Assembly: GCF_030848495.1 (NCBI RefSeq)
Contig: NZ_JAVDDT010000002.1
Location: forward strand, 124,001-188,000
Reading direction: 5' to 3'
DNA from: Natronospira bacteriovora
GTDB taxonomy: Bacteria > Pseudomonadota > Gammaproteobacteria > Natronospirales > Natronospiraceae
Length of the DNA stretch: 64,000 nucleotides
This document shows positions 31,755 to 63,887 of the stretch, piece by piece. Positions within the stretch are counted from its first letter, which is position 1, and each line of letters begins with the position of its first letter. The notes beneath the pieces were generated by a model. It was given only the letters and a program-made list of their open reading frames with translations. It searched no databases and was not told where the DNA came from. Both the position numbers and the translations under genes were made by a program.

Positions 31755-31796
31755 TGTGGGAGAGGCTTTCAGCCTCGATGCCAGGTAGCCACTGGC
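31755..31796 (+). repeat. REP-like double hairpin in the tRNA spacer
   Basis: TGTGGGAGAGGCTTTCAGCC begins a small hairpin (GAGGCT, TTC, AGCCTC). It is followed by a second (GCCAG ... CTGGC, 31780-31796). The GTGGGAG lead and G-rich/C-rich stem resemble repetitive extragenic palindromes common in pseudomonads and xanthomonads. Only one copy is seen in this window, so the REP label is tentative. Confidence 0.4.
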
Positions 31797-31855: not shown

Positions 31856-31931
31856 GGGCCGCTAGCTCAACTGGTAGAGCAGCTGACTCTTAATCAGTAG
31901 GTTCGGGGTTCGAGTCCCTGGCGGCCCACCA
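31856..31931 (+). tRNA. tRNA-Lys (CTT)
   Basis: 76 nt with encoded CCA. The acceptor GGGCCGC pairs with GCGGCCC. The anticodon loop CTCTTAA gives CTT. The T-arm is GGGG TTCGAGT CCCT. Its last 21 bases (31911-31931) are repeated downstream at 32124 and 32337. Confidence 0.95.
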
Positions 31932-32444
31932 ATTACCAGCACGGCTCACCCGGTCTCGGGTGGGCCGTTTCTGTATCTGGGGGCGCGACTGGGCCAGGGA
32001 CTCAAACCCCGATCATTTTTATTGGTTCGGGGTTGTGAGGGCCATCCATGGCCCTCACCCTCCGCTGTCGCTACGGGCTCCGCGCTAACGCGCTTCGCGA
32101 TGGATTGTTCCTGACAATCCATTCGAGTCCCTGGCGGCCCACCAATTACCAGCACGGCTCACCCGGTCTCGGGTGGGCCGTTTCTGTATCTGGGGGCGCG
32201 ACTGGGCCAGGGACTCAAACCCCGATCATTTTTATTGGTTCGGGGTTGTGAGGGCCATCCATGGCCCTCACCCTCCGCTGTCGCTACGGGCTCCGCGCTA
32301 ACGCGCTTCGCGATGGATTGTTCCTGACAATCCATTCGAGTCCCTGGCGGCCCACCAATTACCAGCACGGCTCACCCGGTCTCGGGTGGGCCGTTTCTGT
32401 ATCTGGGGGCGCGACTGGGCCAGGGACTCAAACCCCGATCATTT
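31911..32444 (+). repeat. 213-bp tandem repeat containing the tRNA-Lys 3' end (2.5 copies)
   Basis: Unit 1 is 31911-32123, unit 2 is 32124-32336 (identical to unit 1 by eye) and unit 3 is 32337-32444 (first 108 bp only). Each unit begins with the 21-base 3' end of tRNA-Lys including CCA. It then carries a hairpin GGCTCACCCG/CGGGTGGGCC followed by GTTTCTG, and an inverted copy of the tRNA T-arm (GCCAGGGACTCAAACCCCGA, 31993-32012). GGTTCGGGGTT (32024-32034) is again tRNA sequence. After that come GAGGGCCA/TGGCCCTC and TGGATTGT/ACAATCCA hairpins. The array ends exactly at the aminotransferase stop codon. This accounts for the whole 512-bp gap between tRNA-Lys and the next gene. Confidence 0.95.
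31942..31970 (+). terminator. terminator-like hairpin after tRNA-Lys (repeated at 32155 and 32368)
   Basis: A ten-pair stem (GGCTCACCCG with CGGGTGGGCC, one T-G pair) closes a 4-base loop and is followed by GTTT. The T run is short, so termination may be partial. The same hairpin recurs in both later repeat units. Confidence 0.55.
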
Positions 32445-63734: not shown

Positions 63735-63740
63735 AAAATC

Positions 63741-63781
<41 letters not shown>

Positions 63782-63887
63782 CAAATGCGTCGGGAACGTA
63801 TTTGAACTCGCGCTCTGCGCGAGGCCCCGACCGCAGGGAGGGGTGAGTCTCATGGATGAGACGAATAACGACAGCGGCTGGGTCTTG

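Follow-up and report, generated by a model that had tools for sequence, protein, structure and literature searches.

A probably mobile, hairpin-ended element interrupts the T-loop of duplicated tRNA-Lys ends in Natronospira bacteriovora and recurs near tRNA genes across the Gammaproteobacteria

Directly behind an intact tRNA-Lys gene, the 64,000-nucleotide stretch of Natronospira bacteriovora DNA analyzed here (the window) carries a tandem array whose full unit consists of a duplicated tRNA-Lys 3' end, a terminator, and an inverted T-arm, with its T-loop interrupted by a small element. We consider it likely that this is a small, non-autonomous mobile element inserted into a duplicated tRNA-Lys end, and that the array was later expanded by recombination. 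Mobility is argued from comparison of sequences, and no live transposition was observed.

The repeat starts inside the T-loop of the gene, at position 31909, and recurs at exactly 213 bp (Table 1). In a full unit, the tRNA 3' end is followed by a terminator-like hairpin, an inverted T-arm, the direct 5' half of a T-arm, and the 89-bp element, which stops where the next tRNA 3' end picks up; this hairpin-ended element, which the original prediction had not recognized, interrupts the T-loop of every 3'-end copy downstream of the gene, and its ends are ambiguous by 1 base because the end bases are common to the flanks. The inverted T-arm copies are 95% complementary to tRNA-Lys over 20 nt, and six terminator-like hairpins were found in the region, versus a mean of 1.1 in shuffled sequences. 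The original prediction had described a 21-base tRNA 3' end at 213-bp spacing; the spacing held, but the repeated end is 23 bases long (TTCGAG...CCA). The inverted T-arm ascribed to every unit is indeed in all three, while the direct half is confined to the two full ones. Units 1 and 2, which had looked identical, match base for base (31909-32121 versus 32122-32334), and the partial unit repeats the first 110 bases unchanged, without the direct T-arm half and the element; the array extends as far as the stop codon of a convergently oriented aminotransferase gene. The copy number (two full units and one partial) comes from a draft assembly of short identical repeats, and the exact number is not secured. 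Between tRNA-His and tRNA-Lys, at 31755-31778, lies a short palindrome, TTGTGGGAGAGGCTTTCAGCCTCG, resembling the repeats that flank the only Y1 transposase gene of the genome (L094).

Table 1. Coordinates of the tRNA-Lys array and of a further element copy in the window
Feature	Position	Strand	Basis
Intact tRNA-Lys (CTT)	31856..31931	+	ARAGORN and Rfam tRNA model
Unit 1, 213 bp: tRNA 3' end, terminator, inverted T-arm, T-arm 5' half, reversed element	31909..32121	+	
Unit 2, 213 bp, identical to unit 1	32122..32334	+	
Unit 3, partial, 110 bp: tRNA 3' end, terminator, inverted T-arm	32335..32444	+	
tRNA-Lys 3' end, copy 2 (TTCGAG..CCA)	32122..32144	+	
tRNA-Lys 3' end, copy 3	32335..32357	+	
Terminator-like hairpin 1	31941..31968	+	
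Terminator-like hairpin 2	32154..32181	+	
Terminator-like hairpin 3	32367..32394	+	
Inverted T-arm, unit 1	31993..32012	-	
Inverted T-arm, unit 2	32206..32225	-	
Inverted T-arm, unit 3	32419..32438	-	
Direct T-arm 5' half GGTTCGGGGTT, unit 1	32024..32034	+	
Direct T-arm 5' half GGTTCGGGGTT, unit 2	32237..32247	+	
Element copy 1, 89 bp, in T-loop, antisense to tRNA	32034..32122	-	Covariance model, G000:C2:156030-156127, E 7.2e-22
Right hairpin of element copy 1	32035-32058		
Left hairpin of element copy 1	32100-32122		
Element copy 2, identical to copy 1, in T-loop	32247..32335	-	Covariance model, C2:156243-156340
Element copy of another subfamily, 86 bp, in (CGACAA)n array, no adjoining tRNA	63782..63867	+	Covariance model, C2:187777-187871, E 1.4e-10

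The original prediction had proposed a search for the unit in related genomes. In another genome of the genus (G001), tRNA-Lys is followed by one full unit and a partial one, and this equal layout with the same 213-bp spacing argues that the array did not arise by chance; the repeat is absent from a further member of the genus (G002) and one of the family (G003), in both of which the sequence has the tRNA and no repeat behind it. The full unit of G001 is 78% identical to that of the window. Over 105 bases, the two G001 units agree at 89% and so differ by 11%, versus no difference between the window units.

Identical tandem units, and a copy number that differs between the source genome and G001, are what a pure tandem satellite would give, produced by slippage and unequal crossing-over behind one tRNA and with the element as a mere spacer. 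This is very improbable as the whole explanation. When the genome was searched by BLAST with the 213-bp unit, the second half of the unit turned up at additional places, and the good matches lay near a tRNA. A covariance model made from nine element copies found 25 copies in the source genome at E ≤ 2.4e-4. The supposed spacer is thus a dispersed, covarying element, present at no fewer than 10 tRNA loci of the source genome and in many other genomes, and the same flanks can carry different elements. A satellite confined to a single locus was rejected as the sole account, since the middle of its unit is dispersed through the genome; the pure satellite is refuted as a full account and remains true for the expansion step. 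The drifting satellite considered in the original prediction likewise misses the main point, which is that an element found class-wide and at many tRNAs makes up the middle of the unit.

Seventeen of the 25 copies lie within 600 bp of one of the 43 tRNA genes, zones that make up about 1.8% of the genome (p ~2e-15, taking 11 of 18 independent sites). They are found behind the tRNAs for Lys (two), Ser(CGA), Ser(TGA) (three in tandem), Gln (two in tandem), Arg(CCG), Thr, Ser(GCT), Arg(ACG), Val, and Arg(CCT) (three, at 194-bp spacing), and one is near tRNA-Gly within a hexamer array. The remaining eight are in (CGACAA)n arrays distant from tRNAs. The model was built from tRNA-linked copies and may favor such copies; the (CGACAA)n copies were found by the same model. 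When compared, copies of the (CGACAA)n subfamily were about 91 to 99% alike at unlinked places, and this subfamily is the youngest-looking group in the source genome. Copies at tRNA sites are at best 71 to 82% alike between sites, so moves to tRNA sites are old or separately seeded. One (CGACAA)n array with an element occupies 63740-63871 of the window. The three elements behind tRNA-Arg(CCT) form a second satellite (G000:C1:280157-280631, L055), in which the 194-bp spacing is exact and the element is antisense.

Beyond the source genome, the same model was applied to 19 genomes of the order and detected the element in 13. A second covariance model, built from 53 matches, found it in at least 142 of the 370 genomes sampled from the class, across 119 of 273 genera; the first figure is a lower bound because 11 candidates were scored per genome. 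An exact pattern scan of species genomes gave at least 120 stretches with the element, and the 80 titles listed comprise one Eremiobacteraeota metagenome-assembled genome and entries that are gammaproteobacterial by name or given just as Proteobacteria. Among the pattern-scan matches listed, 112 of 137 sites (101 of 120 stretches) are within 300 bp of a tRNA or tmRNA gene; 110 of those 112 listed sites are sense and 98 are downstream. A plasmid search with the element returned 22 records, several of them chromosome-sized entries. We also drew 67 class-sample loci from the best-scoring rows, 27 as returned by the class search and 40 picked by hand; an annotated tRNA or tmRNA lies within 300 bp at 45, and the other 22 include some at contig ends with tRNA-like 3' ends and others that are plain non-tRNA sites. 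The element stands close behind tmRNA genes at L109 and L155, with the joined flanks at L109 matching the tmRNA at 16 of 19 bases. At L119 and L120 (1501 onward), from two genera, related proteins have it at an equivalent position within the reading frame, where it adds about 28 in-frame residues. Among open-access papers, we found none that describes the element, its T-loop insertion, or a class-wide element of this kind.

The insertion site was analyzed with 142 non-redundant copies, whose flanks were joined and compared with the local tRNA or tmRNA over 19 positions. The joined flanks match at 15 or more positions in 77 copies and at all 19 in 42. At these 77 T-loop junctions the element is sense to the tRNA in 71 and antisense in 6; the window copies are antisense. 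The usual site is the T-loop bond TTCGA^A (TTCGA^ATCC), beside an intact tRNA, and the bond (G/C)A^A is seen in 127 of the 142 copies, a figure that leans to the model because the model alignment sets the element ends. Two types of site occur. Behind a tRNA, the order is intact tRNA, terminator, inverted T-arm, T-half, element, and 3' end; ahead of one, it is tRNA 5' part, element, and intact tRNA (L105, L106, L113, L116, and L122). A clean empty site is provided by L081, where the element splits GACAGGA^ATGTCTC and an intact copy of that sequence adjoins the occupied one; there is therefore no target duplication beyond 0 to 1 bp. The multi-bp target duplication expected of a miniature element (MITE) of a DDE transposase was not seen, as both L081 and the T-loop junctions give 0 to 1 bp.

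An intact tRNA followed by a displaced copy of its 3' end also looks like an attL/attR pair, and the original prediction had raised the possibility of a remnant of repeated integration at a tRNA attachment site. What stands of this is a small element in the T-loop. That the units are scars of integrase-mediated islands or satellites entering the tRNA 3' end is extremely improbable: the units are about 160 to 217 bp and hold no genes, neither an integrase (among six neighboring proteins tested) nor att-bounded gene cargo was found at the window unit, and the element also sits at non-tRNA sites and, in a few copies, in anticodon loops of tRNA-Ser (L061, L105, L113, and L171). Phage records gave no match to the 213-bp unit and the element pattern was seen on one viral contig only, and a phage origin of the unit was rejected on these grounds.

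Elements of the IS200/IS605 type and PATE-like elements have hairpins at both ends and insert 3' of a short motif with no target duplication. The present element shares these traits, but its left hairpin abuts the insertion point, and we identified no IS200/IS605-type transposase that matches it. The only Y1 transposase gene found in the source genome is flanked by another repeat and not by the element, for which reason a RAYT/REP origin was rejected. Likewise, a scan of 20 Y1 loci found the element at none (best E of 0.53), so that neither these loci nor the source-genome gene offers a transposase tied to it. Across genomes, the association between a Y1 transposase and the element is loosely positive and does not decide the matter: one is present in 115 of 142 element-positive and 139 of 228 element-negative genomes (p = 5e-5, with genome size uncontrolled), and 27 element-positive genomes are without one. 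REP/BIME elements with their RAYT transposases, CGTC REPs, and the Rickettsia palindromic elements are, like this element, short, palindromic, dispersed, and non-coding. Its copies can also sit in reading frames (L119 and L120), a further likeness to Rickettsia palindromic and REP-type elements, and CGTC-tagged REPs are reported to lack a dedicated transposase as well (PMC3733652). It differs from REPs in that no GTAG tag was noted at its ends, it does not flank a Y1 gene, and it strongly prefers T-loops; the REP literature consulted reports no REP-type element at tRNA T-loops.

The element proved to be a module distinct from the tRNA-derived frame, with a separate history, since units of the same array share flanks and differ in their elements. 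At L136, four units with near-identical 3' ends stand behind tRNA-Gln and carry elements in the order A B A B, 96 to 99% alike within a type and 71 to 74% between types. At L106, L111, and L133, the left flanks of neighboring units agree at 22 to 24 of 25 bases and the elements are 79%, 59%, and 64% alike. On this reading, block duplication would so come after the element has joined the tRNA-derived frame. An inverted T-arm was detected (p ≤ 0.05) in 45 of 55 downstream sense loci, but, T-arms being alike, a tRNA of another isotype also passes in 25 of the 55, and for this reason we claim no compensatory change for the tRNA-end stem. The 3'-end stem by itself scored above all of 50 shuffles in 18 of the 55. 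TGAGA takes the place of TTCGA in the inverted T-arm in 15 of the 55 downstream loci, near the element; such arms occur at L033, L063, L106, L110, L123, L136, and L138, and the same change is seen in E. coli RtT.

Likeness to the distal repeats of E. coli tyrT, which yield the RNA rtT, had been proposed and is right in substance. In K-12, rttR lies behind tyrV and has the same order of parts: inverted T-arm, AAGGTTCGA, core, and AATCCTTCCCCCACCACCA. RtT RNA (Rfam RF00391; rttR at tyrT/tyrV) forms tandem repeats behind a tRNA, as in the window; RtT and window units have in common a tRNA 3' end, an inverted T-arm, and a direct T-arm half before the core, the E. coli parts being the inverted T-arm, GGTTCGA, a hairpin core, and AATCC..CCA. 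The window differs in having tRNA-Lys, a 213-bp unit, and a reversed element, which lies on the minus strand with the tRNA on the plus strand; in the E. coli core, judged by eye, the GGA-loop hairpins are lost and the terminal hairpins look eroded. The Rfam RtT model scored over threshold on homologous units at L197, L228, and L152, reached E ≤ 0.1 on 10 of 20 loci scanned (L152 included), and overlaps the element model on the same bases at L152, L125, L126, L136, L140, and others. On the window unit it gave no match at the gathering score, nor at E ≤ 1 on the array locus (L001), and the window satellite is therefore RtT-like in layout and not a member of the Rfam family. A unit from Kosakonia matched 5,375 of 5,426 complete E. 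coli genomes, although no match covered 80% of the unit; the best places carry the annotation 'RtT sRNA'. A second family, AaHKsRNA22 of Aggregatibacter (Rfam RF02902), is described as an sRNA family, unlike the element; its model is over threshold on one element, at L136 (45.0 versus 39.8 bits), is below threshold on L108, L110, and L155, and has no match to the window unit. RtT is reported to be released from tRNA operons, to affect the stringent response, and to be conserved in Pasteurellaceae (PMC4986893), to be raised in cold-grown Thioalkalivibrio (PMC8092127), and to be similar to elements classed as BIMEs (PMC2965389).

The element is roughly 71 to 92 bp long with a conserved hairpin set, and its pairing is strongly covarying. 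In an alignment of 81 distinct class-sample sequences, which was fitted to the covariance model, both partners vary in 21 of the 25 pairs, with 421 double-change cells versus a mean of 128 in shuffles, of which 0 of 500 reached 421; sliding the partners destroyed the signal. An alignment of nine sequences made without the model gave 12 pairs and 35 cells, with 0 of 500 shuffles as high. For the RNA of the window unit, the predicted fold has a z score of -7.1, with the inverted and direct tRNA ends as its closing stem; for the element alone, the z score is -4.7. The earlier suggestion that the unit encodes a structured RNA is plausible in light of the unit fold and the covariation.

GGA is carried by both apical loops: the left one has it in 133 of the 142 copies, and the right one reads exactly CANGGANG in 102 of them, window copies included, on the element strand only. 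The high-affinity CsrA/RsmE loop is reported to be an ANGGAX hexaloop on a stem (PMC4005645), and this feature of the Csr/Rsm sponge RNAs is present in the right hairpin, again only on the element strand. Among the Rfam Csr/Rsm RNA models, RsmY gave weak matches on L172 only (25.9 to 29.3 bits versus 57), and none matched the window unit. A csrA gene is present in the source genome, and an RNA role of the element via a CsrA/RsmA-type loop is possible. At G000:C7:158451-159445 (L052 and L043), csrA stands directly before tRNA-Ser, followed by an element, tRNA-Arg, and another element; csrA next to CsrA-like loops may be coincidence or autoregulation.

These loops could instead mean that an RtT-type regulatory RNA came first, with the element and the tRNA-end stem selected together and released from tRNA transcripts, recurrence being duplication and the GGA loops binding CsrA/RsmA. 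The sense bias (71 of 77 T-loop junctions; 110 of 112 tRNA-near sites among those listed in the pattern scan), the GGA loops that fit the hexaloop, the presence of csrA, the fold of the window unit, and the reported release of RtT from tRNA operons (PMC4986893) are all in keeping with it. The sense bias, however, would also be expected if the element inserted into single-stranded DNA of the non-template or lagging strand. Where the element is antisense, as in the window and at 6 of the 77 junctions, a transcript reading through from the tRNA would not expose the GGA loops; in the window, each unit is moreover separated from the tRNA by a terminator. The E. coli rttR terminal hairpins look eroded, and neither the (CGACAA)n copies nor those within reading frames fit. 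We regard this explanation as distinctly unlikely. At the window locus, the mobile-element reading is safer because the antisense element keeps the GGA loops off the tRNA-Lys transcript.

For the small mobile element, we can suggest the following route. An enzyme acting on single-stranded hairpins would put the element into exposed loops, mostly the sense-strand T-loop of tRNA genes. Entry, probably in the form of a single-stranded hairpin, would take place between (G/C)A and a following A and leave no target duplication beyond 0 to 1 bp. Surviving cells would be those in which a duplicated or template-switched tRNA end took the element and the working tRNA stayed intact; the inverted T-arm resembles what outward growth of the terminator palindrome through template switching might produce. 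Direct repeats would then allow unequal recombination, by which the unit was presumably expanded and homogenized into identical 213-bp copies. Read through, the unit would yield a compact multi-hairpin RNA in which the inverted and direct tRNA ends form the closing stem, as the RtT layout suggests.

A wider proposal is more speculative, and we think it unlikely: that class-wide minimal mobile elements target the tRNA T-loop bond and have CsrA/RsmA-binding loops in both end hairpins, that their insertions make tRNA operons yield CsrA-binding RNA, and that the E. coli RtT repeats are their eroded descendants. A small element in the tRNA T-loop would give the long-unexplained tRNA-distal repeats of E. 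coli a testable origin. RtT, the Aggregatibacter sRNA, and the Lys satellite would then belong to a single family, which is present in more than one-third of the class genomes sampled. This raises the question of which enzyme moves a 70- to 90-bp hairpin into tRNA loops and why cells keep the element. If the GGA loops act in RNA, tRNA transcription would be linked to the Csr/Rsm network.
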